Shown piece after piece: positions 6,790 through 34,156 of a stretch of 64,000 nucleotides of DNA (position 1 is the first letter of the stretch; each line of letters opens with the position of its first letter). Source of the DNA: Strobilurus pachycystidiatus (taxonomy: Eukaryota > Basidiomycota > Agaricomycetes > Agaricales > Physalacriaceae); NCBI GenBank assembly GCA_019915135.1, contig JAHLMK010000013.1, positions 310,001 to 374,000 of the forward strand, read 5' to 3'. The notes below the pieces were generated by a model. It was not told where the DNA came from and did no database searches. It saw only the letters and a list, made by a program, of their open reading frames with translations. A program made the translations under genes and the position numbers.

Positions 6790-8213
6790 ATGAGCGAACA
6801 AGAAAGACAGGTCTGTCTGTGTAGAATAAAATCCGGACATCACACTGACAATTTCTCAGAATTGGCAAAACGTGAGGTACAGCGCTCCATACGACAAATG
6901 CCCGCCTGACTTTATAGTTTCGCGCTTTATTGTTAGACTCAATTCGAAGACCCGAGGCGGATGCTCCTCTAGAAGGCCTCTGGTTGAGTGACCTGCGTGA
7001 TTTGGCTTCGAAGCTATCACCCGATGACATGGAACGTGCTCGCGCTGAAGCGGGGGAAAGAATTTGGGTCCACTTAGTTTTTTTAGGGGTCAGGAAGGAC
7101 GGTCGCAAAATGTCACGTCAATTGGACGGGAGACTTCAAATCTCGGGTACCGATATTTCGAACTGGGACCTTTTCCCTTCCGTTCGCGATGAAACGGTGA
7201 TTTCCCGTTCATTGTCAAATTGAGGCATCCCTGATTCTGAATTACAAGTGTGGGACGTGTCTCAACAAAAGTGTATGTGAACATACCGCTGCGGCAAGAA
7301 AGGGAAAAAAATGTCGCGAATGTCATCTTCAATTGAAGGCTTGTCGGACGCCTGCCGAGGACAAGGACAAACCGTCTCTCCAAGCCCGTCCAAGCGCAGA
7401 GACATCTAAACCGAGGCCAGGACCTAAACAGGTTTGTTATCTTGCGTCTTCTCCCTCGCCCAACTCAAATGCAACGTCTAAGTGTTCATCGGACATACTT
7501 ATCGCTGTATCCGAATTGCCGAAAGCGGGCCGCGAGAAAATAACAATCACAGACGGTACATCCTCTAAACTTTTTATCGAACCTGTTAAGCTCAACTAAA
7601 ACTAGATGCAGCCAAGAATAAGGTGCAACCTTTGCATCTCAAAAAGAAAGGAACGCAGAAACCATCCTCTTGTGGAAGTCTCCCATCCGGAGCGGATGAT
7701 GAAAAGAGGCTTCCTTTTGTGCCAAGTCTGAAGTTGAAGCGTGGGGACGAAGATGGGAAACCTGCAAGCCCCTCGAAAAGACTTCGCACAGTCCAAGATA
7801 TCGAGGGCAACACTGAAGACCCCGTTAACGTCAATGCTGTCATTGAGGAGGATGCGGGCCGAAACTCTGAAATGGCCACTGCGAGTTTTGGTCTTCATGT
7901 CGAAACTGGAACAATTATTGACAACACAGATATCAACATTCGGCGAAATGATGACGCCTACCGCCAGCAACATCTCGAGCTCCCGACGCCCCAACTCCCA
8001 CGTTTAACAAGGATTGATGTCGCAGCCGAGTATAAAATCCTACATGAAGCTGCAATTCATATGTTGGGTGAGGTGCAGCAAGTAAACGCTGAAGTTGTCG
8101 AGCAGAGACAAATTCAAGCCAGCTTTCACCATTTGTCGCTACGGAATCTTGATCAAATGAGGGATGCATACAAATACTTGATGAAGAGTGCTCGTTACAA
8201 TATCTTGGATTGA
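6790..8213 (+). CDS. Zinc-cluster family protein A (type I, 408 aa)
   Basis: Five exons: 6790-6810, 6860-6871 (12 nt), 6918-7196, 7249-7555, 7606-8213. The protein opens with a short leader, then a 93-codon exon (FRALLLD...GERIWVHLV...DISNWDLFPSVR), then a six-cysteine cluster C-x2-C-x5-C-x11-C-x2-C-x6-C that starts exactly at exon 4. A basic proline-rich stretch (KPRPGPKQ) sits where the sister gene at 22.5-26.8 kb has an AT-hook. The tail is acidic then coiled-coil (MLGEVQQVNAEVVEQRQI) and ends in a motif shared with that gene. The spacing is close to Zn2Cys6 DNA-binding clusters, but those are normally N-terminal. A nuclear regulatory role is inference only. The gene ends 219 bp before POLD2. 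Confidence 0.7.
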
Positions 8214-10184: not shown

Positions 10185-11278
10185 ATGGCCGAAACCCGGG
10201 GGGTCGCCAAAAAACGTAGACTGGACGAGCTCGCAGAGCCTCCGCTTGTGTATGAGCGAGACTCGGAATTTTGGTTTCCAGACGGAAATATCATCCTTGT
10301 CAGCAACAGGTCTGGCGCGTATCCGTCTTGGTATGCCGATAACGAAGCATGCCAGTCAAGGCGTCAAACCCCAATTGGATGTTGCGTCCATCGCGGCGTC
10401 CTCGCCATGCATTCCGCCTTTTTCAAAGACATGTTTGAATTGGCTACCGCCCCGCTCCATCCGGATTCCAATCCAGAACATTCGATCTCTCTGTGCACAA
10501 TTCTCCCTCTGGATGACAATATTGATCAACTACGCATGCTGTTGCGGTTGATGTACCAATTCAGGTGCGTAATTATTTTCAGGTTGATTCTCGTCGTCGT
10601 ACCTGACATTGAAGCAGATACTTTCAACCAACCAAGGATTCCTTACGGTATAGAGCCCTCGCCGATATGATGGACGTGACAACCAAATATCTTTGTCCAG
10701 CATTCCAGCAGTCGATAAGCGAGCATCTCAAGTCTATTTATCCTTCGGACAGGAAGACTTTTAGCGACCAAATGAGTGATGCTTCAGGAATAATACGGCG
10801 CGGCGACATGGCGATCTGGGCTGTTTCTGTCGCACGTAAGGAAAATCTCCCTACTTTATTGCCCTCCGCTATCTATGCGGCTTCTCTTCTGCCAGTCGCA
10901 GAATACCCTCATACGGATTTGCACGGCTTAGACGCACACGCCCTAATCCTTGGTCGAGAAGCGCTTACCCGGGCCGTCATACAGGATGGATGGGCTTGGA
11001 TTGGAGACGTGGATTCTGGAAGATGCAACCAACACCACTGCCGCAGTACGCGTGTGACCATCTCTCAGCGTCTGCTCAAAAATGCTATCGATTTCGCGAT
11101 GGAGGCTTTCATCCGGCCCATGCCGCATACAATGACAAAATTTTGGGCTGGGAGACAACTGCCGGAGGAAGGCAAAGTGTGCGAGGACTGCTGGGAGGAA
11201 TGGTCCGAAGACGAAGAAAAGGCATATGATAGGATATGGTCTAGTATTCTGACTTTGTTCAAACTGGGCCCCGCCTAA
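10185..11278 (+). CDS. BTB/POZ domain protein, 346 aa
   Basis: Two exons, 10185-10564 and 10618-11278. The N-terminal part reads as the short agaricomycete BTB type: FWFPDGNIIL at residue about 28, VHRGVLAMHSAFFKDMFEL in the middle of the domain, then LPLDDNIDQLRMLLRLMYQF before the intron. The second exon continues as an alpha-helical region with RYRALADMMDVTTKYLCPAF and a C-terminal cluster CEDCWEEW. BTB domains mediate dimerisation and often link substrates to Cul3 ligases; no specific partner is visible. There may be one more intron around 10310-10360, where the frame stays open but the alignment to the family loosens. Confidence 0.82.
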
Positions 11279-12523: not shown

Positions 12524-13095
12524 ATGTTCACCATCTTCGTCTTCATGTTTACCCTCTTTTTCGCGCTCAGTGCTGTCGCATTGCCCATAAGGAATCCTCC
12601 TCAAACTCTCATCGCCTGGAGTCCAACCATCACCTCGCCAAAGCCCAATGAGAAGCCATGGGCCGTTGGTGAATGGCGCACTGTGACATGGGGTCCGTAT
12701 ACCGCCCTGGCGCACCGGCGCTCTCGCTAATTCAAGTTCGCAGAAACCAACAACATCCCGCAGGAAAAGGTGCACGACAGTGGCTGGGTTGTCCTTGGCC
12801 ACTGGGCCGATCTAAGCCGTCGCAAAAATCTGGACTACAGTGCATATATTTCTCTCTCCAGCCCTTATATACATCCTGAATTTATTCTGTAGTGCATCCC
12901 ATGGCTTCTGGATTCAACCTGACTCAGGGCTGGGTCGAGTGCCAGATGCCTACCCACGCCCCCACAGGAGACAACTACTTCATCGTTCGTGAGTCGCACT
13001 TCCTTCACGGCGTGTCTAGCTCTCACTTTCCGACTAAAGTCTTTTGCGACTCGGGCAACACGTCGCCGACGTTCAGCGTCGTTTCGCCTCAATGA
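12524..13095 (+). CDS. Kre9/Knh1-like secreted cell-wall protein
   Basis: Four exons (12524-12692, 12744-12839, 12893-12988, 13040-13095) give 138 aa. A hydrophobic signal peptide (MFTIFVFMFTLFFALSAVA) is followed by one beta-sandwich domain of the Ser-Thr-rich GPI-anchored membrane family: ITSP near the start, VGEWRTVTWETNNIP, HPMASGFNLTQG, and a final FCDSGNTSPTFSV. The yeast relatives Kre9 and Knh1 act in beta-1,6-glucan assembly; basidiomycete single-domain versions are uncharacterised. There is no C-terminal hydrophobic GPI signal, so this copy is probably soluble. All introns keep frame and rebuild the conserved core, so the model is reliable. Confidence 0.88.
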
Positions 13096-13629
13096 ATGAA
13101 TCGGAATCAATTTCTTGCATCTCCTTCCGCTCGTTTACCTCGAACCCACCATTGGACCTTCTTGAATCGTGACCATCGCTTTGTTCAAATCGGAACTGTT
13201 CCTACTCACGTACATTCTAACACCGCTGCCTTTTACGTATCATAGTCCTCTTTCGCGTCCACTGTACCATATATTTGATAGCTCGTAATTTATTTTGAAT
13301 GCAATGCTAGTATCTGTTACCGAAGGACTTGTTCTCGATACTTCTCTTAGCGTGGGCTTACGGATTTGAAAAATTCGACGCGACCTTTACTGTGTAAAGA
13401 ATTGGAAACGATGACGCATGTGTTCGTATGTCTTCGCGTTTCCCCCACGCTGATCATACAGCAATGGCCGATGACATTTTGTTGTGCACTAGAGTATATA
13501 TGTGGCTGAAACAATGCGGCATCTCAGAGACTACTGTAATATGCCCCTGCAAGGCGCACTTCGAATTGCAGCGGTCAAGTAGAAACGGTAGATGATATTG
13601 GGTATAGAATAAGATTGCGTTTTCAGCAC
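13096..13629. other. Convergent intergenic region
   Basis: Lies between the 3' ends of the Kre9-like gene and the EBP gene. No coding signal is seen on either strand. Confidence 0.5.
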
Positions 13630-14532
13630 TCATGCCGTCTTGACCTTGATTTGAGTGGCGCGAGCAGACTTGGCAGTGATCGAGTAAGATTCCACCATGA
13701 GCCATATCGGAATGACAACCCTGCTAGAGAGTGTGTTAACTGAAATCTCAACGGAAATGAAGGGAAGAAACATACATGACGTTCATGAACTGTTCATTAT
13801 TGTTAGCAAGCATTACTGTTGTTGGCAATGACTGGGACGTACGAAAAGGTAAACACAATTTAAAAGATACAGCGGATTCGAGGTATACAAGTTCTCGCTT
13901 CCAGTCAACCACTCGGGGCAGAAAGTCATCCACCTAGACGTGGAAGTTGAATGAAGGCGACCACTGCAAGAAATGAAATACGCGCCCTCCATATATCTCT
14001 GCCGTGCTCAACACCACAATCCAATAATGACGCGCAGGATCGTCAGCCACGAGTTGTTTGAGGATGTAGCAGCATAGCGGGCCAGCCCCGAGGACAGTGA
14101 GAAGCTCCAAAGGGACGACCGTAGGATTCGAGACCCCCCAACGATAGTCGGCTGCCGCGTATTCTCTCCCTAAGCGGTCGAAACCGAAATCATGCTCTGC
14201 CCAAGTTTCACAAAGAAATATAGAGGACGTACACATTTCCGCAAATGGGCCCACACTTGTGTTCACTTGGCGTCCCAACACGGACAGGTACGACCAGGAT
14301 CCTTCAAATGAAAAATGTATCATAACATCGAATGCCTATTAAACGATATTTTTCTGCATTTAGAAGGGCTCTTGGGGACACAGAAGGAACGGTCCAGCCA
14401 CATAAACGTCTAGCGATCTCGCACGCTTGCCGTTTTGGGTAAGAGCGCTTGGGCGCCCCCGTACGCGATCCCTGCAAGTGCTGAGACACCAAGCAGAGAG
14501 AACAAAAATGTCGTCGTGAATATTCCGTCCAT
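13630..14532 (-). CDS. EBP/EXPERA-family sterol isomerase-like protein
   Basis: Emopamil-binding protein family, multi-pass ER membrane proteins; EBP catalyses sterol delta8-delta7 isomerisation, though many fungal paralogues are untested. The core is clear: IHFSFEGSW, then WREYAAADYRWG after an intron, SNPTVVPLELLTVLGAGPL, STAEIYGG, WMTFCPEWLTGSENLYTSNP, and the tail VVIPIWLMVESYS. The last exons are 13789-13776 (14 nt) and 13720-13630. Two oddities: the intron after AEIYGG seems to use GCGCGT as donor (GC-AG), and the first exon beginning MDGIFTTTFLF runs into TAG just after VRDR when read straight. The N-terminal exon structure is therefore unresolved; a damaged 5' end cannot be excluded. 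Confidence 0.82.
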
Positions 14533-16444
14533 TGCGCAAGGTTCAAACGGCAGTTGGCTGCAGTTGGTCGTGGGTCGAGAATCGAAACTTCGAAAGTCGG
14601 TGAGAATTAAAATTTGAATGGCCTCGCGCAGGGTCGTTTAATATCGAATACATTCGCCTCCCAGCGGGAGTTCGAGCCTTAGACAGGACGCTCCATTGAA
14701 AAATAACAAGTAAGTAGGAGACGTCAAGAATCCGTAGCGAAGCAGTGACATTCTCGTTGTTTGCCACAGCGCGAGTGTATTGACTAGCTCGGGCGGCAGG
14801 GACACGAGCAATGCACCCAGAAATATCCCCAACGAGCGAGGGAGAGTTGTTCCTGGTCAGTTGGACAACTCCAGTCAGAGCGAGCATCTGGATTACAGTA
14901 CGTCTGGATCTCTGAGGCTAGCTTACTTGATGACGAGGGTACTTGCAGGAGACAATTATATCCATGCGGATCGCGGTAGTCAAATGTGACTTGTGTGACT
15001 CCGGACTCCGGACAAAATGGTGTGGTTTAGCGACTGGTGACTTGAGAAATGAGCGTGCATTAGCGCCACAACGTGCTTCGCGGGTTTACTCCGAGCTTGG
15101 AGGTCTACGCTGGGCTGTTACGAGAAAGTCGACGGGACTACTCGATGACTGGGTCCCTGAAATTAGACGCTTACCCTCAGAAGCCAAAACGCGTCGCGGG
15201 GAAGCCAGTGTTCCAGTCACGTCCTTGACAGAAACATTCATGTGCGCCCATCTTCAATATGATGTCGACTTCGCTCTGGTATGTCGGAGCATAGAATGAG
15301 GTCCAATCAATGGTGGAAAAACCCCGAATCGGACGTGACCCAACGCGTAGCTCTACGTTCCTCCGAGTCGGAAGACGGAGTTTGCAGTTATCTCTTCCGG
15401 AATCCTGGGCACACAGACCATCAAGGTAGAATTCGATGAATAAGGAAACTCAACTTCATTGCTACGATGTAGAATTCTGTGGTAACTCTGATTCTAGTGT
15501 TTTGCTGCCATCGCAATTTCATGACGAGATGACTTAGTAGAGATTGCGGAGGGTTTTTGTCGCATGCAGTGAATCGTTTGTTGGTCCCCGGTTCTCTGTT
15601 TAATATTCGGTGTAGTCGGCTCCGTCGTTGTCGGGGTGTCCAAGCCCCACTGTTCTCTGGAACTCGTACTGACTTTGACGTCAGCTTCACTGAAATTACG
15701 CACCGCCCCCCGCTCTGCGACACTGCGTCACCGAATCGCCCCGTCCTGCGTCCGTCGGTATGTCGCCCAGGTTGAGCATGGCTCCTCGTCCTGACCGCCT
15801 TTTCGTTTTGGCCGATGCGTCTCGTCCTCAACATTTCAGTCGCAGTCGCAGTCGCCGTCAGACCTGTCTTCGTCCTGTTAACTCAATAATCCGCCCTGCT
15901 GTAGCTGTCATTTTCGGCCCTGGCCCGTTGCGAGGGCCACGTCTGTTAATTGTCCCATGACCAGTCGATGCGGCAGCGCCAATGCTCAAAGGTGGAGGCG
16001 ACGGAAAATGGACGGATATAGCGCATCCCAGGAAAGAACCCGCCGGGAGGGGAACCCTCCGTTGGCATTGGCATTGTCCTATCCTGATGTTTTTACTCAG
16101 ATTACCACTAGCTCATCCCAGCTCGTGTCAAGGTCAGCATTGCCGAAGGATATATCGACTTTGTTGTGCGAACGGTGGAGACACTTCGATTTATCCTCGA
16201 GTGCACGCGTCACGACACTATCGAGGGCTGTCGGAAGTGAAAGACATCTATCATTCAAGCCTGTTTTCGTAACGACAAACCTCATCTCACCCAGGCGCAA
16301 GTGGGTTGGAATTGTCTGCGAGCCACAGTGTAAGCCACTTTCACGCCCGCATGAATAAACTACGCGTCTCGCGCATTAGATTAAATATGTGGCTTGTAAG
16401 TACCGTTGATGAAGAAATGGTCGAAACAAGAAGGCGACATCGTC
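14533..16444. other. Region without an assigned gene
   Basis: Open frames of 60-140 codons occur on both strands (for example 14543-14887 minus, 14943-15299 plus, 15957-16358 plus) but none shows a recognisable family or a convincing splice chain. The region contains copy 2 of the dispersed repeat at 15575-15722. Confidence 0.4.
15575..15722 (+). repeat. Dispersed repeat, copy 2
   Basis: Matches 735-870 in the same orientation at both DNA and minus-strand peptide level (FSEADVKVST here, FSETDVKNST there; DTPTTTEPTTPNI here, DTPITMETTTPNI there). The conserved peptide suggests descent from a coding sequence, perhaps of a mobile element. Confidence 0.6.
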
Positions 16445-18097
16445 TCATACTACTTCGTTGCGGGTTAATCTATTTCAGTCATTTCGATGTTGTATTGCGA
16501 GCCGTGTCGACAAACCGTGCCGTAGCTGCGATGCGGCCGCCCGAGGGTATCACAGTATGTTGCAGGCCAGTCTGCAGATCGAGGCCATCCATGATAAGAA
16601 TATCGCCCTAGGCGATGGCTTGTTATCGCTGAATCAAACAAACGTAACATACTTACGTGGAGTAGGTTCAAAGTAAGTACATGTTCCTCGGTTGTTTTCT
16701 TTCGAAAAGACATGCGGGCATCTGATCCGAGTGAGAGACCAGCAACGGTCGGACCCAGTCCCGCCTCGTCATCACTGTGGAACTGAACAAATAAGATAAT
16801 GAATCGACGACCGTCGAACGCAAATTACCGCCATGGATTGGTGTTCCAGATAAGCGACACTGACAAGATTTCAATTGTGAATATTAGATGGAACGAGGGA
16901 CGCTTTACCTGAGGAGTTCATTGAACGGTGTTCGCCCTGGGAATAACATATCGCATGACTTTTGAATGACTCTAAGAACCCTGGGAATGAAAGCAGGGCA
17001 TCGTTCCAGCGGAACTGTGAAATCCGAGCCACCGACATACTAGACCCAGAATCAACGCTGACGCGCGGATAAAAAAACAATGTTGTGTCGCACCTCGTAA
17101 ACGGCACCTGCTAGAACGGAAATGAGCCTACCGAAACGTGTTTCAATGAATGTGGACCTACCATTATGCGAGAAATAATTGGTCAACATAGCACCTTGAC
17201 CTGAAACCGTCAGTGATTGAAGCTGAGTATTTGTGGCGCGCACATCGATGGGACCGTAACGGTGTACGTTGCAGAAGAACCTGTCCTTTTTGAGCGGCAG
17301 TCAAGTACTCTTGCAACAAATCATCGGCATTGTGGTGTTTAGCAGTCCGAATGAGATGAATGACGCCACTGTCAAAGTGTTAGGACATGTGCGTCAATCC
17401 ACTGATGGCCTACACAAGGTTTTCTATACCGAAAGAATGGACTGTTGCCCCAGTAAATTCGGTCTTGTATCGCTTTTGTACTGCATCACATCCTGCAGGT
17501 CAGGGATAAGAAGATATATATTCAATCGATATGCTAACCGAATGGCGAGGTTTTGACCAACACGGGATCTTGCCTCAACGTCGCGCGTACAATCAAAAAA
17601 TCCACAGTGACAGTCTGTTCCACATGGCAGTTGTCGCATCTAAGCATATGCCACAATCGCCTTCAAACGGAACATCAGTTAAACACTAAGGTTACGGTAA
17701 TAACACACCTGCAACTGAGTCGACCGCATTGCGTGCAAAGGAATCCATCAAGTTTCTTGGACGCAGTCTCAGGCTCCACCGCAGTGCGGACTGATTTGGC
17801 CATGTGTGAAAACATGAGTGCGCAGACGAGAAAACGAGTGTCGTAAGACAAAAGCTCGGTGGTGCTAGATGAAAACGAAGGACAAGTGACCGTACTGCAT
17901 ATAGCGCCCTCTGAAAAAATCATCGGTTGCCAAGAGTCGCAATCGACACATTTGAATAAAGGTAACGACAGATCGAGGGCAGGGAAGTGGTCGTTGTACA
18001 CCGCTTGTTCGGCGGAAGACAACCACCACATATCCTGGACACCATCGGTGACTTAGAATCTGGATATGTATAAGAAGGACGTACCGAATTCGGACAT
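16445..18097 (-). CDS. AlkB-like 2OG-Fe(II) dioxygenase with cysteine-rich N-terminus
   Basis: Multi-exon gene read from MSEFVTDG at 18097 to the TGA at 16445. Catalytic part: FNELLR, an 11-residue exon VSLIWNTNPWR, then FHSDDEAGLGPTVAGLSLGS (iron ligands H and D of HxD), and near the end GDILIMDGLDLQTGLQHTVI with the distal histidine, followed by GGRIAATAR with the 2-oxoglutarate arginine. This is the AlkB order and spacing; AlkB enzymes oxidatively remove alkyl groups from nucleic acids. The N-terminal half is unusual: cysteine pairs in CVDCDSW, GFLCTQCGRLSC and CDNCHVEQ suggest a zinc-binding module that could contact DNA. The catalytic residues are intact. Exact exon limits in 17.2-17.7 kb are unsure. 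Confidence 0.75.
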
Positions 18098-18129
18098 AGG
18101 GTTGCAATGAGTTTGTACATTACGCCACG

Positions 18130-19229
18130 CGAATTTTTCTCGTCTGAATTGATAAGTCATGGACAAATAAGGAATATGGGGACTTACGCCAGACGTGTTG
18201 AATGTAAAAAGTGCCCAGAAAGCAATATTGGGCCGAAGAGGGCAGCCCTAGGAAATAAGGATACTTGCGGCCAATGTATACACGAACCGGATGTCCGTTC
18301 TGACAAGCTCGCTGAGCCGCATGGCCACGGTCCGTGGAATCGTTCACGAAACCGCTGTAGGCATGTCAATGAGATCTTCGTTAAGTCTATGGCCGATCGT
18401 ACGCGTGTGTAACAATAACGCGACCATCAAAGAAAAACCCGTCCCGCCTATCATTGGTGAGATACGGAAGAGGCGAAGAAGAAAACGCGCACTCGGCCGT
18501 AAACTCAGAAAGGAGCAATCCAAACAGAACACTCTTGCATATATACATGCCAGAATGGTAAGACTTGAAATATGTCTCGTTCTCACATAGCTCTTGACGA
18601 GTAACGCACCAGCGCATGGTGGTAAGATCCAGAAGCGATTTTACGTAATCGGTCTGACGACTAGCGAAGGGTCGATACACTAGTCTAAGTTTGTGAGATG
18701 GATCGGCCTGCTTCTTCGCCAGAGCCTTCGTCGTGGCTGTACTCAACAGCTTGGACAATATACGCGCATCTGCTCTGACTAGCAACGTCACCATCGACGA
18801 GTTATTGATCTGGGCTCTCGTGGAGACACGAGGGCCTGCGGCAGCCCATCCGTACTGACGACGGTGTACGAACGTCCTTAACCCACGCAGCGCCATTTCC
18901 GTCGTTTTGTTCGGTTCTTCATCTAATGTACTGAATAAATCAGATCTTCTTGCTGGGCTGTCTTTGCAAGATACGGTACCCAACCGACGCTAACAGAACG
19001 GCGAACGCGTACTCCGGTCTGGGGTTGTTTCCGAGCCTCAGAGATTGTGGAATCCGCGGGATAAAGTCGAAGACTCCAAGGTGAGGCCCAATTCGAGGTA
19101 TTTGACGAAAAACAGCTCCGAATGATTTGGGTCGAAGACAATTTCCTGGGTCCGTTGCACAAGGCGCGCGACCTGTTTCCAAAGATAACTCAGTCTATGT
19201 GTGTCCAGCAACATTTGCAAGAAACTCAT
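18130..19229 (-). CDS. Unassigned membrane-protein-like gene (uncertain)
   Basis: A chain of minus-strand segments reads plausibly as one or more exons: MSFLQMLLDTHRLSYLWKQ starting at 19229, EYAFAVLLASVGYRILQ near 18.97 kb, MALRGLRTFVHRRQYGW near 18.89 kb, then after an intron at about 18.57-18.52 kb the hydrophobic GGTGFSLMVALLLHTRTIG and, after another intron, FVYTLAASIL. The pattern suggests several membrane segments. I recognise no family and could not close the reading frame near 18.2 kb, so start, end and number of genes are provisional. Decay is possible. Confidence 0.3.
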
Positions 19230-19398
19230 CCACCGCGATATTGGAGATTTTGATGGCGATGGACAGTCAGCGAATGTGTAGCTTAGAAGGGCAAGAACGC
19301 AAACCTCGACCAAATGAAACAGAAGCAAGGAACGCGAATGGGCCAAAAACGTGTGATTGACAACTACTGCATGTAAGAAATGATTGTTCAAAATACGA

Positions 19399-20286
19399 CT
19401 ATATCGCTCGGGTCTCTTCCAGTATTCGGCGGCAGTCGTTAATTTTTCGATTAAGTTCTAAAATCTTGCGACGTAAGTCATCAGCTTGACCAAAGTCAAG
19501 CAAAGTCCCGAGTCTACTGGTGTTTCCGCAGGTCTCTCCCAATATCGCACAACGACGACAACTAACGGCGGTGATTTTGTTCGTCAATTCGCAAATATGT
19601 CGGTTAATTTGACAAGCCACACACTGCAAATGATCAGTTGGGACACCGACGCTCAACAATTCGTCCGTACCGGTTCATTTCGCAAGGCAGGCTTCAGGTC
19701 CCACTCAGAGATGTCTGCGCATCCTAAGTAGGTCAAGTGGACCTTCTTGCCCGCGCCCATCGACTCTCCTATGATGTTCGCCCAGATAGTGGGGGGACAG
19801 ATGCTCCTCATCTCGTTTAATTCGTCTTCTGTTTGCGTGGCCATCAGCGGCTGAAGATATGTCGACCATACAACTCCCATGTCCGGGGATAAGGTACCCC
19901 GATAGAGTCGAATAATGTTCTGAAACTGTGTCCGTCAATAATGCGTATGCTTAGGCCGATGACGCCTCACGAAAATGGTGCTCGTCTCGCGACTTTTGAT
20001 GGCGAGTAGATCCGTACTGTCCACCGGGTACCATTGCACTGGCATGCTTGACAGTTCCTCGTGTAAATCACGCTAATTGGATGTTAGCAAGATATAGAAG
20101 CGTGTAGAAACCCCCTACCAGAAGCTTGTCCCGAGGGATTGCAGTCTCGGAAGTACAAGCTGCGAGTTTCTCTAGCATTTGCTCGATTTTGGTCCACTGT
20201 TCAGGAGTGACGGGCGGTACGAGCGTTGATATCGTTTCAGTAACGACGAGGCGGAAACCATTGGGACCAAGTACGCGCACGACCAT
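19399..20286 (-). CDS. Zinc-cluster family protein B (type II, 249 aa)
   Basis: Four exons: 20286-20119, 20072-19971, 19925-19671, 19623-19399, all introns in phase 0. The first two exons form an N-terminal domain of about 90 residues shared in plan with genes C and D. Exon 3 contains CPPTIWANII, equivalent to CPPWLWSRMI in C and CPPRIWSSLI in D. Exon 4 opens directly on the cysteine cluster CVACQINRHIC-x10-CRRCAILGETC, exact Zn2Cys6 spacing (C-x2-C-x6-C-x10-C-x2-C-x6-C), followed by a short helical tail (LRRKILELNRKINDCRRIL). The gene is head to head with C; start codons are separated by 96 bp. Function is unknown; DNA binding is inferred from cysteine spacing only. Confidence 0.7.
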
Positions 20287-20382
20287 GAGAGGCAAAGGTG
20301 AATCGAGTCGATCGGCCAACTTACCAAAACGGAAGAATTCAACAGTGTTTGTGACCACGTGCTAGGCTTATCCGCTACCGCG
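20287..20382. promoter_or_regulatory. Bidirectional promoter B/C
   Basis: Only 96 bp separate the divergent start codons of genes B and C, so the two genes must share promoter elements or have their 5' UTRs overlap. No TATA box is evident. The GT donor at 20323-20322 and an in-frame GTG upstream of B make a slightly longer B first exon conceivable. Confidence 0.5.
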
Positions 20383-21435
20383 ATGACCGCAGACCTCCTC
20401 GAACTCCCTGGCTCTTATGTGGGGGTAGAATCGTTCAAAATCTTCTTACCTGGGCCACATACTCCTGTGTTCTGTCGCATCGTGCATGATCTTGTCCGCG
20501 AAGTCGAATACTTCTACGGCCAAGCGAAGGATAATTCGTACTGGTCGCCCATCTTTCAGCACCGCAAAGTACGAGTCGCGTTTGTCAATTTTTTTTTTTT
20601 TTTTTGCTAATCATGGGCAGGCTCAACTGCTCGCAATACTCAAGGAACGACTGGGACTGGCCTGGGTCGTTTGCGCCGGGAACGAGATCATGGACGACAT
20701 CCTGCCCAACGTGAACGATTTAGGCGAGTCGCTATCCCGCGTAAGGACTTAGTCTATGTCCGTCCTACTGCGTCGGCTGATGCAAACTTAGCTCGAAAAA
20801 CTTTCCCATTGTCGTTGCCCTTCCGACATTCAGGACGATATCGTTATGAACTTGGCGGACAGCATGGATCTAGAACCCCAACACGTTCAGCGCCATGCCT
20901 TTCTGATCTGTCCTCCGTGGTTATGGTCACGAATGATTGCCATCCGGTACGACTATCATGGGTCGCAGCCGCTTCATCGCTGGCCGTGGGTTGGTCGACT
21001 CCGTCCGTGGCGCGTCAGTATCGCTCCTGTTCCCAGTGCACTACGTTAATCAATCTACAGTGTGACTATTGTATGGACATTGGCAAGGAGTGCGAAGACA
21101 TCATGACCGGCGACGACCGGCGCTGCCGTGCATGTTTCGCTCATGGAGGCCAATGTTTACATCCGTCGGTTATCGATATACGTCCGCGGAGTTTACTCGA
21201 CTCTAATCTCCTGCAAGCGCAGATGATTCTTGACGCCGCGCGTAATAATCCGCTCGCCTCCACCTCTTATGCTTCCAATCACATCGTTCACACATTGGAC
21301 GAGACTACACGTTTGGTCTGGGAAACGCGAAAGCTTCTGACGGAAAATCGCGAAAGACGGAGGCAACACAATGTATTTGTGAAAGATGCGCTTAATGAAG
21401 TAGCCAAAGGTTTTGGCGATGTCGATTATGCCTGA
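20383..21435 (+). CDS. Zinc-cluster family protein C (type II, 300 aa)
   Basis: Four exons (20383-20568, 20621-20740, 20792-21013, 21061-21435), all phase 0. Plan as in B and D: N-terminal domain over exons 1-2, exon 3 with CPPWLWSRMI and a tryptophan-rich end (HRWPWVGRLRPWR), then exon 4 starting on the cluster CDYCMDIGKEC-x10-CRACFAHGGQC, again perfect Zn2Cys6 spacing. The tail is a long charged helix (DETTRLVWETRKLLTENRERRR) likely to form a coiled coil, as in dimeric zinc-cluster regulators. Intron 1 contains a long T run before its AG. Divergent from B; convergent with D, with 44 bp between the stop codons. Function is unknown. Confidence 0.72.
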
Positions 21436-21479
21436 TTCGTATGCAATTACAAAAATGGATACCGTTGATTAAAATTTGT

Positions 21480-22463
21480 TCAATTCGAATAACGAATCAG
21501 CAGAGTTTTGATAGTGTGTTTACATGGTGCAAGATCCCGAGACGGCTCTGATTCTTGTTTCAATAATGAAATGAGAACGGGGAATATTCGATGTTCTCGA
21601 TAGCCTGTGATGTGCCTGGTTCGAGTCAAAGACGCTTGTACGACGACCCGACAAAATTCCAACACGTCTTCTCCGGCTAAGTCGAGGGAACGGAGGAGGG
21701 TAAGGCATGTATCGCGATTCAATCGGGGTTGCCGAACGATTGCGCCAGGAATACACGTACAACCTTTCTGAGCGCACGCCCGGCACATACGAGCTCCTGC
21801 GTAGGAGATGTCTTCACATGAAACGCCGACGCACTGCGAACACTGAAATCCTTGAGATGCAGAGTACGCAACTGACCAAAGTACTTACCTGGTGATCCCT
21901 GATCCTACCACGCCAACTCCACGAAGTCCGCATCTCGTCTGGGGCCTTTGGATAACGGAATCGGATCAGGGAAGACCAAATTCGTGGAGGACACTGAAGC
22001 CGAATACATTCGGCCTCCCAGGCGGTCAGATCGTCGAGTTTGGACGCAATGTTTGGAAGAGAATCCACATCCGTAGGTGAAGACAGGCGACAAAGCTACG
22101 GAATTGCGATCTAAATACGGTATGGTCATTGCAGTGGTGTGTCTCACCAGATTGTCATAGTTGCTGGACAATGAGTCAACGTCTGAAAGGATATGATGTC
22201 CCGAAGTTACGGCCCAGGAATTCCAGTAGTTAATGTCCAACCACTGTGTAAGAGTTTGCTAAATCGTATTAGCATATGAACATAAAGTCCCGCGGGTTCA
22301 TACTTACGCGATCGTAGATGAATTTTCGGTGAGCCGACTCATTCTCGAATCGTACGCGTGACGCCGCGCAAATGAGCTCGATGAGTAATGCAAGGAAGGG
22401 TTTCGTGTCCAGGTCGCAATCGATTGACACGGCGACGGCCAGTTCAGGGCCTCCGATGAGCAT
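21480..22463 (-). CDS. Zinc-cluster family protein D (type II, 278 aa)
   Basis: Four exons (22463-22308, 22258-22148, 22095-21889, 21842-21480), all phase 0. Exon 3 carries CPPRIWSSLIRFRY and ends SWSWRGRIRDHQ; exon 4 starts exactly on CSQC. Its cluster, CSQCVGVSC-x10-CRACAQKGCTC, has a four-residue gap between the second and third cysteines instead of six, plus one extra cysteine, so metal binding may differ. The tail (LLRSLDLAGEDVLEFCRVVVQ) is helical but lacks the long coiled coil of C. It is head to head with gene E, with 61 bp between the start codons. Confidence 0.7.
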
Positions 22464-22524
22464 GGTATGTAAAGAAGTCGACAACAACAAAACCAAACAA
22501 GTTTCCTCTTGCTCGCTCACCACG
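22464..22524. promoter_or_regulatory. Bidirectional promoter D/E
   Basis: The divergent ATGs of D (22463) and E (22525) are 61 bp apart, the tightest spacing in the window. The interval contains AAGAAGTCGACAACAACAAAACC-like A-rich sequence and no TATA box. Expression of the pair is almost certainly coupled, or one gene's 5' UTR lies in the other. Confidence 0.5.
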
Positions 22525-23021
22525 ATGCCGCCGAACTCCGCTAAGAAAGAGGTCAGTTCTTCGACTCGGCTACTGATTGAATTTTAACACAGCTTCAGAA
22601 ATATATTCAAGTACGCGGAGACAACACAAACTGGGGCGATTATTGACATAACTAGTTCCGAGCATTATTGTTCGACCTGAAAAAACGTCCGGAAGCGGGG
22701 AAGGCTGCCGGCACCGAATGGCTAAAGGACTTGCGTGAAATCGTAGTCGAACTGTCGACGGAGGACTTGAAGAAGGCGCGAAATGAGGCTGGAGACACCA
22801 TCTGGACTGAGCTAATCTTCATGGGGCTCGACACGGACGGTCGGAAGAATACTCGCAAGTTGAATGACAGGCTGCAAGTCGGAAATATTGCCATCACAGA
22901 CTGGGATATGGTGCCTGTCGTTAGACCTGACGCGGTGCGTTTTCATCCATCTTTTGCTGAACGAGTATTGACTTGAATAGTGCGAGACGTGTGACAACAG
23001 ATCCGTATGCGAGTATACGTT

Positions 23022-23028
23022 TCACGAC
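23022..23028 (+). repeat. Target-site duplication, left copy (TCACGAC)
   Basis: TCACGAC immediately precedes the left terminus CACCCTATGC; the same seven bases follow the right terminus at 25960-25966. Confidence 0.85.
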
Positions 23029-25959
23029 CACCCTATGCTGTAGGTATATAGCTATATACCCTTTAATTAGAGGGCAAAAACTCACAATAGAACCTGCAAT
23101 TAGAGGCTCTCTATTCAGAGGCGCAATAGATATACCCACTTCCGGGGCGGCTGGGCACGGCTGCCAGAGCGGCATAGCCGGCACCCGGACATAACGGATA
23201 TCCGAGCGATCCGAGCGAATGGACGGATAGCGTCACGTGGGTGGGAGCGCATACGTGGGCGGGGCAGCGCGCTGCGGGCGGTGTGCATCCTCAATGGCTG
23301 AAAAACACCTGCAACATGTGGTGAGTGCTATGGAATGGAGGAGCGGCGGGGAAACAACTGGGGCGGGGTGGATGGGGGACACGGCTGGGGCGGGGGGTTG
23401 AGCGGGCGTACGGCGGGGCGGGGGAACCATTTCTTCCGTTGGGGGCGCGGAACGCTCAAAAGAGCGAGCCACATACCCCTCGACGGATGGGTTATGGCGT
23501 GAGAGATGGGGTGAGGATGATGATGGGGATGGGGATGGTGGTGGGTGAAGCTGGGGTCTGGCGCATGTTGGAGGGAAGGCGTGGCGTAGACTCCGGCCAC
23601 GATGGCGATAACGGCGACGCTATGTGGTTGTGGTCCGGTTCGGCGGTGAATGGGGGTGTGGCGGAGTTGAAGGTGGGGGCCGGATTGGACGCGGGCGCGA
23701 CGGCGGCGAGCAGGGGGCTGTGGGGCGTGCAGTATTTAGTAGCAGTGCAAGAATTGATGAAAAGAAACATACCTGACTGACTGGAACGTCCGCAGACGTT
23801 CAGTCAATCCCACAATACCTACAACCGGCGTGCCCCGCAGGTAGTCGCGTCTGCGGGGCCTGGGCTCTTCAACGCCCGATCCAGATCGTCGAAGTATCAG
23901 CCGCCTGCGTTGGCAGGGCTTACGCGGTGCGTAAGTCGTCCAGATGACGGTTGGTGCGCGTCGTTGCGCGCCAACGTCATCCACGGCTGTCGTGAGCCAT
24001 GGACGCCCAATCCGGGGGAGGCGACTGTCGGAAGTCGTGTAGAAGAGGAATAAAATGCCCCAGGCAAAAGCCTGGGGCTGGATGGCACGGCGTCGTCGCC
24101 GTACCGTCGTGGTAAGAGGGTAAAGACGAAGAGCAAACGGATCCGATCACGATCCGGCGAATGCCGGATCGCGTTCGGACGACATTCGGCGTCGCGCTCA
24201 GCAACGTCGACGGGCTCGGCTGTCTTCGCCATGCTTCGGAAAGTGTATATAAACATTAATATATTGACTTCAAAAGAAAATCAGAACGATTACTTACATT
24301 TGCAGGCACGTAAGGCAATCCGATGCCTTACGTGGTGAGTTCCCCATCGCACTTGCATGGCGATGGGCTCTTCACAAGGCTCGGACAGTGAATCTGACGT
24401 TCGGAAAATGATTTCGATGTGTTAAAGTCAGTGTGAGTGCAACTCTCCGGATGGGGTACACAGACCTAGCATTCACAGGACCACATTCCATGTTTTGGCA
24501 TTCTCTGATATACGGTGAGTACATCGAGTGAACTTTCTTCACTCATTCTTTCTGATACTTCGTAGATTGAATACAACATGGTAAAAGACAACGTATGCCA
24601 AATTTCAGCCCTCACAGACGCGTACGTCGCCCGCTACCGTCGTCGTCGTTGACGCGATTGAGGCGCGGTGACTCGGACCGAGATCCGAATCCGTGTTCGG
24701 ATTCGTTTCTCTTCCTCGTACCACGACGACGGCGAGCCATCCAACCTCGGGCACCTGCCTGAGGCTGGATGAGCTCTATATCTCTCGACTGACAGCGTCG
24801 CCGACGTCGTCGAACGTGTCCACGGCTTCCAGCAGCCCTGGATGATGTTTCCCGGCCAGCATCCGCGCACCGCGTCACTTCGACGACGCGCTGAGCCGTG
24901 TAAGCCCTGCCAAAGCAGGCATCCAGTCTCTGAAGATCTGGATCGGGCTCTGAAGCCCCCGCCAGTTGTCGCGCTCGGCGTAAGCCCTCAAACGAGGCTG
25001 CGATCCCGTAGGCCCCGGCGATGGACAACAACAACGGCGACGACGCGCGTCAGGACAACGACAACGCGTGTCAGGACGACGACGACGACGCCCGACACTG
25101 GCTGCGACGGCCGCTGTCGCAGCAACGGAAGACCGAGCGGGATCGGGGGGTGGGATGGCGCAGACGCCGCGGACGCGACTACCCGCGTGCAGAGGGGAGG
25201 ACGAGGACTGGATCGTCGCTCGGCGACGGCGCCAGTCACGGGTATGTATAAATACTCCCACAATCCGCCTCCCTCCCCCTCATCCCCATCCCCATCCCCA
25301 TCCCCACCCCTCCCCCCCCCCCTTTTCTAATCTCATACTCCTACCCCCATACTCTCCACCTCCCCACCCCCGCCCCATCGCTACCTCAACGGTCGTCAAA
25401 ACAAGACGCCCGCTGCGACCGTCTACGCGCGCCGCCCGCCCGCCGGACTGCACCCCACCATGATTGCCAACCCCCCTCCCCTCCCCTCCCCATCCCTCTC
25501 CAACTTCATCACCACTACCCCCACTTTCGTCGTCGGTATGTGGATCGCTCCATTGAGCGTTCCGCGCCGCCGCCGAAAATACCGGGTCCCCCGCCCCAAC
25601 CCCCAGCAGCATCCCCCGCACCCTATCTTCGCCCTCACCAATCCCCCATCTCTAAATCACACGCTCTAGACGTCACAGTCATTTTCCAGCCGTCGCGGAG
25701 GCGCACCGCGTACCGCGCTGCTGCCCGCCCCCGTGTCCGGTCCCGATGCACGTGATAACATCCGTGCATTATCTCGGATCGCTCGCATGTCCGTTATGTC
25801 CGGGTGCCGCTGATGCCGCTCTGGCAGCCGTGCCCAGCCGCCCCGCCAGTAGGTATATCTATATGGCCTCTAATTGCAGACCCTCTAAATAGAGGTTCTA
25901 TTGTGAGTTTTTGCCCTCTAATTAGAGGCTATATAGATATATACCTACAGCATAGGGTG
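23029..25959. mobile_element. 2,931-bp foldback-like DNA transposon, inserted in gene E
   Basis: Both ends are CACCCTATGCTGTAGGTATA in inverted orientation. The terminal inverted repeats run about 190 bp with few mismatches and share the blocks GAGGGCAAAAACTCACAATA and GGCGGCTGGGCACGGCTGCC. Similarity continues inward: GCGGAACGCTCAA-like blocks at about 23446 and 25550, and CCCGATCCAGATC with GGCAGGGCTTAC at about 23875 and 24910. The whole element is thus a diverged palindrome with arms over 1 kb and an AT-rich centre at about 24240-24600. It is flanked by TCACGAC on both sides. No transposase is recognisable; open frames inside are GC-biased shadows. Superfamily unknown; it is probably non-autonomous. 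Confidence 0.88.
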
Positions 25960-26806
25960 TCACGACGACCCTAAGGGAAAGTGTCGCGAATGTCGCCTTC
26001 AGTCAAAGGCTTGTCGAGTCGCGTCGAAGTCCCACTCCCGGACCGAACTCAACAAACATTCACCCCGTTCGAACGCGTCAACGGTACCCACTTTCCGCGA
26101 GGTCACGGTGGAGGCCCCGATTAAACGAGGGCGTGGGAGACCTCCAGGCTCCAAGACAAAGGCCGCCGCAGCGTCAACCTCGAAAGAGCTCCCCCCGTTT
26201 CCCTTTCCAACACAACCGTCCGGGATCTCGAAGAGGCTGAGGAACCCGCGAAACGACGATTTGGAGTCACGTCCTCGTAAAAAGACGCGGAGAAGCGAAA
26301 AGGCTGAGGCCGAATCACCTGAACCTTCTGAAAAGTCGGCAGAAGCTTCGGAAGATGAAGATGTAGAGGGGGAGGAAATGGATACAGGTACTGTCGCGCA
26401 ACAGATATCGCCCGCTCCTGAACCACTCTCGCCGGGTTCTGTGGTACCTTCCCCTGCTGCCGAAGGCCCCATCCAGGACCACACTCAACCAGAACGACGC
26501 GATGTCGGCATTCAACACGACGGCGAACCAAGTGGCGAATTGATCCGAGCGAGGGACGCCTGGTTGTCATCTGAACTATACGCAGCTCGTTTGGACACGA
26601 TGGCGAAAGTGTCCTTCGACAGAGAACTTGCGGCGCTTCAGGGCGAGGTGGACCGTATGCTGGGTATGGTGCAGGAGCTTCGCGAGGACGTTCTGGAGGA
26701 CAGACGGATCCATCAAGATTTCCGGGATAAATCAGTGAGTGGTTTGGAAGTGTTGCGCGAAGGTTTCGTGAGGTTGAAGGGTAGCGGACAATATAGGATA
26801 GCTTGA

Positions 26807-27955
26807 GCGCTTGGGTTCGAAATTTTTTGGCGACCATCTTGTATATATATATATAGTTCCGACGTATAGAAATTGTAAACATGGGATCAAACGCTAAGTA
26901 GCAGGCCCTGCCGGACCCGGCCCTACGCCCACTTATAACTTGATGATAACACTTGATCGTCAACGCGTCACGCGTCTGGTTTCAATGTCGGACGTTTGAC
27001 AATGACTGTTTGACTTCGACTTCAAGTTCAAGTTCGTATGCCAAAATTTTCCCTAGACAAGGGCCTGCCTTGGTCTTACTTCAGGCCTGTCTCGAGATTT
27101 AAGATTCAACACAACTTCGCGATGTGTGACCTGCAGTTTCATATGCAGAACCCTGTAATGCCAATCTGATGCCAATGGTCCGGTACTTGTGCACCCGACC
27201 CTCATCGACATACTTTTTGATGATGTGTCTGATGGCTTCTTCCGAATCGGAACTTGGTCCGTTCCATCAAACAATGCCGCCACTATTGGACAAGCGCCCA
27301 CTGACGAAGTCCGAGTCTTACGAGTTGACGACGCGACGGTCAGCCGGCCGTTTTTCTGTGGTACAAAGACGATGACAATAAGACTGCAATCAAAGAGCGC
27401 GAACGCAAGAGAGTGCGAGGGGTGACACTGATAAAAGCGACGAGGAAGACGGTCTCGGAGCTCGGATAATTTCAGCGACGGAGACGTCAGCAATAGCAAG
27501 GACGTCGAAGATTATACTTGGCATTGTTGACTTTCTATACCTCAGCTTCTACAGCTTCCGACGCAGGAGTAGTTTACGAAGCACCCACCGCCTTTTTGGT
27601 GCACAAATTGGGCTAGCAGGCTGTAGATGATGTACATACAAATGAAGCTGGAGTATAACACGAGTTATGGATACAGTCGAGATGTCCAGAGCCTGCTCAA
27701 AAACCGAGAAAGCCCACATGTCTATGGGTCGAGACGCACGCTCTTCCGCACAGGCGGTGGCGGGTATGGCATCAGGTCATCTGCAAGCGCGCGATTCTCA
27801 CTCTAGGAATCTATTAGGCCGAAGATGAGAGAGAAACCGTCCGACTGACCCCACCATCCTGTATTTGAGGCTTGCTTGTCCGCCCGGAATGGTTCATTGT
27901 GGGGTCGCGGTTGAAGTCTAGGGGAGAAGAAACCGATCATGCTGACGTCCATCCT
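26807..27955. other. Region without an assigned gene
   Basis: A TA microsatellite lies at about 26841-26854, just after gene E. An open frame at 27053-27499 on the minus strand and overlapping plus-strand frames around 27169-27425 show no recognisable family. The rest contains no supported feature. Confidence 0.4.
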
Positions 27956-29404
27956 TCAGAGCATCATCGACGTACGCATGGGGTTGAGAACGACAGGCTC
28001 CGTTATTAGTTCACCTGTGGGAGGCAAGGTGAAGGTCTCATTGCTGACGTATTTGTGTGTTTTCAACAATATCAGGTTGAGGAGGACTGTTAGGCTGTAC
28101 ATGCGTCCCAGAATCCCAAACAAGAAGCCAAAGCCTGCGAATTGGAAATGAAACGGATTCTGAATAAGTTCCGAGAATAGAGGGGCAAGAAAAGAATACG
28201 AACCAGTGGTATTGGTGAAAAGGAGTGCGACCGTGAGGATAGTGGAAACTGCGGTGATGAAGCCACATGAAACGGAATACACCGAGACTCGGCGAAGGAG
28301 ACTGTAAGGTGTGTCAAAGCGAGTCAGACATGTGAGATATTGGGCTACCTCTTTGTAGCCGAGTATGGCGACTCGATGCGCGACAATCTCCAGCTAAGCG
28401 CCACAGCTAAAATGATATCCGTTGCAGCATTTATCGAGGCTGCCGCACTGGAACGATGTTATGCACATACATATATAGCAACCACCTGAGCTCACATGGT
28501 CAGGTTTAGGCCATCAGACGCAGCCTGTAGTTTGGGGTCAATGATCAGGTAGATTGAGGTTGCGAGGGCACACGAATACTGTAGAGCCATAAGTAGAGGT
28601 CATGAGGAAGTGTTAGAGTGAAGATACTGACATGGGCTACTACCAGGACAAAGACCGTGCAGGTGACCCATTTATCTCGTGATCTGGAAAAGTGTCAAGA
28701 CCTGGGCAGGACGTATGGACATGGATCGCGTACATCAACCAATATCGATATACGAAGAAGGCTTGCGCGATAGCCGAAGACAGGTACGTGAGAAGGATAG
28801 TCGCGGGGACCGTCCAGATCAGCTTGGTGGGGATTCCGCCTGTAGTTCCCACATGAGATTTTGCTCCAGTTTGAAAGCACCTCGGACTGACTGGAATATA
28901 TCACCAAGAACTGGATGCGCAAGACAATCAACACTCGAGTGAAATATGGTGATGTGAACCCACCTCATATTCATTTGCGATCACAACGACCGAACACGCC
29001 GCATCTATCACCATCAGTGCATAGATCCCATAGTAGTACAGGCGGTTCAGCTTGTAGCGCGACAGACACCACACAGACAGCCCGACTTGGACCGTATAGA
29101 AAATCGTGTTCAGGTGCGCCTCGGGAATGAATACTCTGATCGTGTCGTCGGTCCATGTCAGTCTCCTTGAAATATGTTGTCTGTGCTCACCCTGTGGTGG
29201 AGTCGGCCATGGCGCGCAAAGTGAGCCGCTGAGCGGTGAAAAGGGAAAAAGAGATGAGAGTCGCGGACAGGTCACCAAGTATATGCACCGTACGACGTAA
29301 TATAACTTATTAACATGAAGGGCAACGCGACGCCAGCCTCCAGGGACCACTGTAACTCTGTTCAGAAGAACCACCCTTTTCGCCACCATCAAGGGTGAGC
29401 CCAA
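27956..29404 (-). CDS. DUF6534-type multi-pass membrane protein
   Basis: Multi-exon gene. Membrane segments in order: VGLSVWCLSRYKLNRLYYYG and YALMVIDAACSVVVIANEYE, then after an intron TKLIWTVPATILLTYLSSAI with AQAFFVYRYW, then DPKLQAASDGLN, AAASINAATDIILAVALSWR, and finally VSCGFITAVSTILTVALLFT and LGRMYSLTVLLNLILL. This order, with the FFVYR motif and the final SRxY-type segment, is characteristic of the DUF6534 family, which is expanded in agaricomycetes and has no known function. The first exon and start codon are uncertain; I give the longest frame. Its last exon ends at 27956. Confidence 0.7.
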
Positions 29405-32276: not shown

Positions 32277-32800
32277 AGGAGGCATAGGAGAAAATGGGGA
32301 GAAACCCTGAGAGACAGGCTCTGGGAATTAGTGAGACTTTGGAAAATGCAAGCTTGTTGTATGTATTTGTAACGCGCACCTTGAACTCCAAGCAGAAAGA
32401 GCACTTGCCCGCGCTCAGCGTTGGTTCAAAGCAACATGCGACGAGTGATGGCCATTGATTTGTCGTCAGGATAGCGAGGGCTCTGCGGCGGAGTTCGACT
32501 CCAAGTAGGACATCATGTAGCGAGAAAGGGATGTCAGACTCAGAGAGCAACAGGGAGCGATGGTCGTGATCGATGATCGGTAGCTCCTGGGTAGCTCTTC
32601 CTCTTGACGTTCTTGTTCCGACTCCCCGATGGATGCATCCTCTAATTCCAGTCCCGCACCCTACCGGCAACGCGACGCCATCACATAAGTATACCTATTG
32701 AATTCAATGCCTTACGTTGCTCTCATGACCAACCACCATGCCATGGGCCGTCTGACCGCCTTCGCTGACCATACTAATAGGCGATGTATCGCTATAATAT
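32277..32800. other. Intergenic
   Basis: A minus-strand frame at 32269-32670 is open but overlaps the 3' end of the small membrane-protein gene and has no family match. I see no supported gene here. Confidence 0.4.
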
Positions 32801-34156
32801 ATGGCAAGGAAATTGAGGTTTTCTGCGACGTACGCACCTAGATATGCGGACCAAATCAGGTGTGTAACTACGTCCGGCTTGCGCTCGCTGATTGAAAACT
32901 TCCTGGGCATAGGACGCTTGGAACAATATCACTTCACCCGTGCCACAATTCACGCAGATTCGTGCGTCCTTTGCGCGGCACAATATTCTCACTCTCCGGG
33001 GCCATCGTTTCTTACAGCGGAGGTCCTGTATCCGGCGCTGTCCCGGCTCATACAAACGAATGCTGCTCTTGGCATTCGCGTCGTCGGGAAATCCCCTAAT
33101 CGCTGCTCATTCCGTAAATTGGATACGGTCGACCTAGATCACGCAGTCACCTTTGTTGAGGGACGTGGCATTGCGGAGCTCATGCAGGAGCAGCTGACTA
33201 CCGAATTCGACATCTCTTCCCATAATCCACTCTGGCGCGTCATCGTCCTTGACGCGAAGATAGTCATGTTCGTGTGGCACCATGGCATCGGCGATGGACT
33301 GAGTGGGATTGCGCTTCACAGAATCCTCTCCAAAGCGTTGAATACGCCTGCGGCAGGGAACACAGAGAGTCTGGTCGCAGTCCCTACTTTGGAAATGGTA
33401 CCAACTGTTGAATCTCTCATCAACGTCTCTACGCCTATTCCCAAGTTCCTCGGTAGCTTCTCCGATCTCTTCATGCCCATTTCTTGGACTGCCGGCGCAT
33501 CAGCCTGGACGGGCAACAAAGTCGGCTCTGTTCCATCGCCTGCACTCACACTCAAAGTCGTCGCATTTTCTGCCTCCGAACTTTCCCAACTCCTTTCCGC
33601 ATGTCGAACCCACAAAGCCACGGTAACCTCCGCACTACATGGCGCTGCCATCGTCGCTATCTCCGACGCTATCGGCTCGACGAAATACAAAACACTCTCA
33701 GCAGGCGTAGCCATCTCACTTCGTGGTCTGACGAAGACTTCGTCGGAGGTACTTTGCTGTCATGTCTCATCTTTTCACAAGTATCGCCACATCAGCACCG
33801 AGTTCTCCTGGGAACTTGCAGCTCAGACGCAGAGTCACAAAATCGTCGGCCTGCTCAAGTATCTCTTGGGGAATTATTCCACATACTTCACTTCTCAGTT
33901 CGGCAAAAAGCGTGAAGTCTCCTTCAACGTGACGAACCTTGGTGTCTTTGAAAACACCGGAGGTGCGTGGCAGGTTAATGACTTCTGGTTCGCGCATTGC
34001 GACGCGTTTGTTGGGGCAGCCGTTGGAATTAGCGTTGTTGGAGTTGCTGGTGGGGGCTTGAAGGTCATTCTCTCAAGTGGAGTGGGGGTGTTGGATGAAG
34101 GAGTTTTGGAAGCAATAGTATCAAAGTTCACGGAAGTTGTCTATACGCTACTTTAG
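32801..34156 (+). CDS. Alcohol acetyltransferase-like protein (AATase family), 451 aa
   Basis: Acyl-CoA-dependent acyltransferase of the AATase/condensation-like fold; relatives transfer acetyl groups to alcohols. The 451-aa frame is uninterrupted. N-terminal signature GRLEQYHFTRATIHADSCVL corresponds to the family's LE-YHxxR start. The active-site motif reads WHHGIGDGLSG, i.e. HHxxxDG with both histidines and the aspartate kept. Later blocks are VTSALHGAAIVAISDAI and VSFNVTNLGVF. Length is typical of the family. The first 20 residues do not align with the family and an upstream or spliced start near 32860 is possible. No membrane segment is visible. Confidence 0.82.
   Translation: MARKLRFSATYAPRYADQIRCVTTSGLRSLIENFLGIGRLEQYHFTRATIHADSCVLCAAQYSHSPGPSFLTAEVLYPALSRLIQTNAALGIRVVGKSPNRCSFRKLDTVDLDHAVTFVEGRGIAELMQEQLTTEFDISSHNPLWRVIVLDAKIVMFVWHHGIGDGLSGIALHRILSKALNTPAAGNTESLVAVPTLEMVPTVESLINVSTPIPKFLGSFSDLFMPISWTAGASAWTGNKVGSVPSPALTLKVVAFSASELSQLLSACRTHKATVTSALHGAAIVAISDAIGSTKYKTLSAGVAISLRGLTKTSSEVLCCHVSSFHKYRHISTEFSWELAAQTQSHKIVGLLKYLLGNYSTYFTSQFGKKREVSFNVTNLGVFENTGGAWQVNDFWFAHCDAFVGAAVGISVVGVAGGGLKVILSSGVGVLDEGVLEAIVSKFTEVVYTLL

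Follow-up and report, generated by a model that had tools for sequence, protein, structure and literature searches.

The stretch analysed here (the window) comprises 64,000 nucleotides of Strobilurus pachycystidiatus DNA, positions 310,001 to 374,000 of JAHLMK010000013.1, and is part of contig C13 of a 51.8-Mb genome in 61 contigs. It carries four adjacent genes, B to E, whose products have six cysteines with Zn2Cys6-like spacing, together with a related gene, A, and an AlkB-like gene, F. The genes were modelled without transcripts, with GT-AG sites, open frames and conserved sequence as the guide to exon boundaries. The features are as follows.

~6790..8213, plus strand: gene A, an E-type zinc-cluster gene (first and cysteine exons modelled, joins past ~7430 uncertain)
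16479..18617, minus strand: gene F, multi-exon, with an AlkB-like 2-oxoglutarate-Fe(II) oxygenase C-terminus and a cysteine-rich middle (splice joins approximate)
19399..20286, minus strand: gene B, four exons, 249 amino acids, CX2CX6CX10CX2CX6C and then a predicted long helix
20287..20382: divergent intergenic region of B and C, 96 bp (113 bp on contig C14; 13,573 bp with a retroelement on C16)
20383..21435, plus strand: gene C, four exons, 300 amino acids, CX2CX6CX10CX2CX6C
21436..21479: tail-to-tail gap between C and D, 44 bp
21480..22463, minus strand: gene D, four exons, 278 amino acids, CX2CX4CX10CX2CX6C
22464..22524: divergent intergenic region of D and E, 61 bp (64 bp on C14; 68 bp on C16, where the start of the E copy is uncertain)
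22525..26806, plus strand: gene E, exons 22525-22551, 22593-22610, 22656-22934, 22981-23028 and 25967-26806
23029..25959: inverted-repeat element within E, 2,931 bp, flanked at either end by the 7-bp direct repeat TCACGAC; not present on contig C5

The start codons of B (20286, minus strand) and C (20383, plus strand) are 96 bases apart and those of D (22463, minus strand) and E (22525, plus strand) 61 bases apart, while the stop codon of C ends at 21435 and that of D reaches down to 21480, which leaves 44 bases between them. The first-pass annotation of this DNA had described B/C and D/E as head-to-head pairs and C and D as tail to tail at these same three distances, all of which agree with the start and stop codons.

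The six-cysteine domain and its two subfamilies

A six-frame scan of the window with the six-cysteine pattern gave four matches (A, B, C and D), against an average of 0.05 in 20 first-order Markov controls. The cysteine spacing is 2-6-10-2-6 in B and C, 2-4-10-2-6 in D, and 2-5-11-2-6 in A and in the copy of E on contig C5. The earlier statement that all five proteins carry six such cysteines therefore stands for A to D, but not for E as it occurs in the window, where the inverted-repeat element lies between cysteines 3 and 4 and splits the set three and three. The inverted repeats of this element are 211 nt long and 86% complementary, and the copy of E on C5, which lacks it, is intact and gives a single open model of 403 residues; the 2,931-bp insert is a transposon that breaks E in the window copy. 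In A to E a phase-0 intron is placed so that the first cysteine codon immediately follows its acceptor, and an AG likewise precedes that codon in the relatives that the pattern picked out, four on C16 and three on C14, as it does in one of two more distant C16 matches and not in the other.

The Zn2Cys6 family (PF00172) follows the spacing rule CX2CX6CX5-12CX2CX6-8C. B and C satisfy it, and D, A and E fail it at the first loop only, which has 4 (D) or 5 (A and E) residues instead of 6. The PF00172 profile did not reach its cut-off, as the last exon of B scored 9.4 bits against 21 and the other nine of ten proteins gave no row; nor was there a PF00172 row at E≤1 in a Pfam scan of B to E and 165 residues of A. 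None of the five has any Pfam match above cut-off, and to this extent the earlier view of an undescribed zinc-cluster family is supported. Rows below cut-off for A to E and their relatives (DinB_2, Pox_A_type_inc, FrhB_FdhB_C, Di19_C, TIL and zf-CCHC) were set aside, and an SPX domain, the closest PDB sequence to the last exon of B (E=0.025), was put down to chance similarity between helical sequences.

An AlphaFold model of the last exon of B (mean pLDDT, the predicted local confidence score, 75) shows two short helices where the cysteine pairs lie and a further helix over residues 35-73. A Foldseek search with it gave 20 rows at E≤10, which belong to chains of HAP1, PUT3, PPR1, LEU3, GAL4 and 1cld; we take all of these to be Zn2Cys6 DNA-binding domains, although only PPR1 is so titled. 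The model thus weakly resembles this class; a model of exon 3 of E built from eight sequences (mean pLDDT 62.7) was too poor for a fold search. What B and C share with regulators of the Gal4, Hap1 and Put3 type is the CX2CX6CX10CX2CX6C arrangement, with a long helix after it in the B model, and to this can be added the weak structural matches of the B model within the class. The A to E family differs from them in that the domain lies mid-protein, about 105-180 residues in, that nearly all rows have a glutamate (E) after cysteine 3 and CRxC at cysteines 4-5, that the first loop is shorter in D, A and E and that the Pfam cut-off is not reached. The six cysteines may nevertheless bind zinc as they do in that class.

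In a tree of 14 rows built from exon 3 and the cysteine domain, the C and D proteins of all islands (see below) are set apart from B, E and A by a branch supported at 100/100, although it should be noted that the tree leaves 6 of its 11 inner branches unresolved and that the program warned that long branches may be joined falsely. As each divergent pair takes one member from either side of this split, each is heterotypic. The ratio of nonsynonymous to synonymous change (dN/dS, Nei-Gojobori) between the window and C16 is 0.12 for B (211 codons), 0.22 for C (292), 0.13 for D (275) and 0.34 for E (368), while window E compared with an extra E copy on C16 gives 0.33 (369 codons), the two C16 E copies compared with each other 0.30 (373) and A compared with the C14 E gene 0.13 (151); with synonymous distances of 1.0-2.0 these ratios are rough. 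On these codon comparisons the island genes are under purifying selection.

Relatives were also found in a protein collection, where exon-sized profile searches gave one match each: P0001 (128 amino acids) among 469 candidates (E=0.025) and P0002 (196 amino acids) among 2,531 (E=5.5e-55). P0001 is 52% identical to B, a relationship that rests on pairwise comparison, and P0002 is 55% identical to C. The source of the two is lgn, and they have the same longest contig of 13,081 bp (P0002 is listed on four contigs), which suggests that they lie together on one contig. Each has an in-frame insert at the place of the intron before the cysteines, and to judge from its position this would be the same intron left unspliced. 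No relative of E or D was found in lgn, full-length E matched none of 6,686 candidates of the collection at E 0.1, and a scan of viral_contigs with P0002 gave no match.

Three islands and the company of gene F

The quartet B, C, D and E occurs together with F at three diverged places in the genome, namely on C13 and C5, on C16 and on C14. The C16 island (936-960 kb), read in the orientation of the window, has an extra E-type gene, then F', B', a gap of 13.6 kb, C', D' and E'. One of the two open reading frames (ORFs) scanned in this gap is a retroelement with RNase H and integrase domains:

L012 5146-9114, minus strand: retroelement ORF between B' and C' on C16, with RNase H and an integrase zinc domain

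E' of this island has no ATG at the homologous place, and the 68 bp given above for its D/E region uses the next ATG. The C14 island, which extends from 453 kb to slightly beyond 460 kb, reads, in the same orientation, F (minus), C (minus), B (plus), D (minus) and E (plus), so that the B/C pair is an inverted block relative to F, D and E and both pairs are still head to head. That B and C were inverted together fits selection keeping each pair whole.

Whole-genome protein searches, the counts of which are lower bounds, placed the C-type matches (at least 19 rows) and the D- and B-type matches (at least 27 rows) only at the islands. The E-type matches (at least 20 rows) fall at the islands, at A on C13 and C5 and at the extra copy on C16, and more distant ones lie on C16 at 220.6 kb and 222.5 kb (same-strand neighbours) and on C1 at 1351 kb. 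Gene A stands alone, with no D-type match adjoining, and its exon 3 is 86% identical to the C14 E gene as against 47% to window E. The expectation of the first-pass annotation that homologues should recur as divergent pairs is therefore borne out for D/E, head to head in three of three islands, and by orientation for B/C in three of three, one of them split by 13.6 kb. Homologues scattered singly were not seen for B, C or D, but A and the extra C16 gene, both near E-type copies, do stand singly.

Gene F lies outside the region singled out by that annotation and was revealed by the conservation of window 16.5-18.6 kb with the C16 and C14 islands. Its product scores 48.1 bits against PF13532 (cut-off 31.2) and its closest solved relative is human ALKBH3 (E=0.0014), which makes it a homologue of the AlkB proteins. 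In these the iron and 2-oxoglutarate are bound by HxD, a distal H and RxxxxxR, and F of both the window and C16 has HSD, QH and RIAATAR at these positions, whereas in C14 only HSD is readable, the sequence stretch examined ending there. Fragments of the C16 and C14 copies score 40.2 and 21.7 bits against the same cut-off, the latter falling below it with 33 residues only. A genome-wide search with PF13532 (E≤0.01) gave eight rows, on C18, C25, C11, C1, C5, C13 and, twice, C14; those on C5, C13 and C14 are the F copies, each below cut-off when taken exon by exon, and the C16 copy was found by tblastn. Compared with the AlkB/ALKBH dioxygenases, F agrees in its catalytic core (HxD, H and RxxxxxR) but has additional N-terminal and cysteine-rich parts and is linked to a zinc-cluster quartet. 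An SRA domain (PF02182) at its N-terminus was considered but is no more than a weak hint, as it scored 18 bits against a cut-off of 30.7 with the whole protein and gave no row with three N-terminal fragments; genome-wide (E≤1) there were six PF02182 rows, on C19, C10 and C3, and none at an island. The presence of F with every island suggests a possible joint role in nucleic-acid demethylation.

The copies on C13, C5 and C14 and the neighbourhood of the window

C13 and C5 are 99.94% identical over window 3227-10292 and over 10285-23035, and 99.90% over 25957-26937. The first of these blocks continues at C5 1929255-1936319, with 3227 being the start of the C5 stretch compared. Window 10285-23035 differs from C5 at eight positions, one of them at the edge of the transposon in E, and three of the other seven lie in D, two of these changing the protein. 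Relative to window 10292, C5:1936319-1949539 is a 13.2-kb insertion flanked by the 8-bp duplication GAAATATC. A recent mobile block of 13.7 kb, considered because the identity stops sharply at 10285 and 26937, was largely rejected as its left break is this insertion.

To the right of 26937 a comparison of 36 kb of C5 with 47 kb of C13 gave no shared stretch. Across the assembly, window 27001-28500 has, besides itself, only short or 66-73% matches, and window 53033-55507 matches only itself. The divergence beyond 26937 may reflect a haplotype-specific region, a rearrangement or an assembly join. C13 and C5 are probably two haplotypes of one locus or else a recent duplicate, their haplotype status being judged from collinearity on the left only. 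On C14, matches between ~450 and 1012 kb come in mirror pairs, the island being listed twice, so that the contig looks like an inverted duplication, perhaps through the joining of two haplotypes during assembly.

A BTB/POZ gene at window 10113-11275 (plus strand) matches a stretch of C14 some 26 kb away from the island there (80% in DNA), in the same relative order and orientation, so the duplicated region may exceed the island. Two tandem related genes occupy window 4441-6629 (plus strand), have no Pfam match and are ~42% identical over 141 amino acids, and related sequences lie in inverted orientation at 42174-43117 and 56580-57463 (69% protein identity over 111 amino acids). An array of imperfect repeats, mostly at 20-bp spacing, is found at 11690-12014. 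Other genes of the window are:

9319-9894: DNA polymerase alpha/epsilon subunit B gene
32798-34156: alcohol acetyltransferase-like gene
35370-36473: DUF6535 gene
46812-48140: Sir2-family gene

Proposed paired regulators and the alternatives

In our judgement the chances are about even that B to E encode paralogous nuclear regulators, each with a Zn2Cys6 domain and a coiled coil, which form two heterodimerising heterotypic pairs within a conserved five-gene island with F. In such a scheme a promoter of 60-115 bp common to each divergent pair would yield the two partners at matched levels, the coiled coils would pair unlike partners (B with C and D with E), and the resulting heterodimers would bind DNA through their two zinc clusters. 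One ancestral pair would have given rise to two, each with one C/D-type and one B/E-type member, after which the quartet and F, as one island, would have been copied to three sites and maintained there by purifying selection.

Its main competitor is a simple tandem cluster without partner specificity, an ordinary set of lineage-specific duplicated transcription-factor genes. In this case the head-to-head arrangement would be an accident of tandem duplications, each protein would work as a homodimer or by itself, and F would have no part in their function. We regard this as possible, if doubtful. All four genes are indeed paralogous, A and the extra C16 copy are E-type genes on their own, with distant E-like matches at C16 220-222 kb and on C1, and compact fungal genomes generally have many short divergent gaps. 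Such a cluster does not, however, readily account for the inversion of the C14 B/C pair as an unsplit unit, for both pairs being heterotypic, for F, B, C and D being together in three of three islands or for the B and C relatives P0001 and P0002 giving the same longest contig in another source. It is unlikely that the island is instead a mobile element, the descendant of one or its cargo, with the zinc-cluster proteins and the dioxygenase serving in anti-silencing. Several copies at different places would suit an element, as would an oxidative nucleic-acid enzyme beside DNA-binding-like proteins, and fungal DNA transposons that carry TET/JBP dioxygenase genes have been published (PMC12730594); like these, F encodes a 2-oxoglutarate dioxygenase and has repeat-rich surroundings. 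F is AlkB-like, however, and a term search of that paper gave no AlkB, SRA, zinc or HMG; no transposase domain was found in the 30 ORFs scanned of the 223 listed for the window. Moreover, the blastn homology between C13 and C16 consists of gene stretches without shared ends, and the copies are old and under purifying selection.

The first-pass annotation had likened the pairs to homeodomain (HD) mating-type genes, as rapidly diverging loci whose paired products act as partners. In basidiomycete HD1/HD2 and bE/bW pairs, two distinct though related proteins are encoded by genes placed head to head across a short shared intergenic region, and B/C and D/E are likewise divergently transcribed and, from the tree, heterotypic, so this much of the comparison holds. 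The heterotypic make-up of each pair also favours the earlier guess that its two members are partners. On the other hand the quartet has several islands and near-identical copies, and no homeodomain was detected in the Pfam scan of B to E and part of A; the five matches to Homeobox_KN (PF05920), the one homeobox model searched, are on C4, C8, C12 and C1, off the island contigs. The 99.9% identity of the shared C13 and C5 blocks speaks against rapid divergence and would amount to low allelic diversity if these are two haplotypes; the two C14 copies, too, score alike in nearly all search rows. A mating-type interpretation was accordingly dropped as the leading one, and a mating-type-like or other non-self recognition locus appears to us very improbable, even though E is disrupted in one of the C13 and C5 copies and D holds three of the seven base differences noted above, two of them changing its protein. 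Rather more speculative than the paired-regulator scheme, and improbable as it stands, is the idea that the two pairs, as obligate heterodimers matched to F, bring it to defined chromosomal sites, where it would erase base or nucleic-acid methylation in a locus-specific manner.

A literature search by title or the opening of the abstract returned nothing on a zinc-cluster quartet of this kind. Many proteins encoded in agaricomycete genomes have CX2CX6C repeats in mid-protein, and zinc-ribbon AlkB proteins occur there as well, so we do not extend the word 'undescribed', applied earlier to the family, beyond the literature searched. The layout is more conserved than is visible from the window alone, and the recurrent five-gene island with its heterotypic pairs is its most interesting part. 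The domain itself suggests that some Zn2Cys6-like proteins seemingly escape the Pfam model, and the recurrent company of F offers a testable lead on the function of this zinc-cluster family. If the pairs are heterodimers, they would show that the head-to-head partner layout of mating-type genes also exists without a homeodomain, and the several diverged versions within one genome would allow tests of partner recognition.

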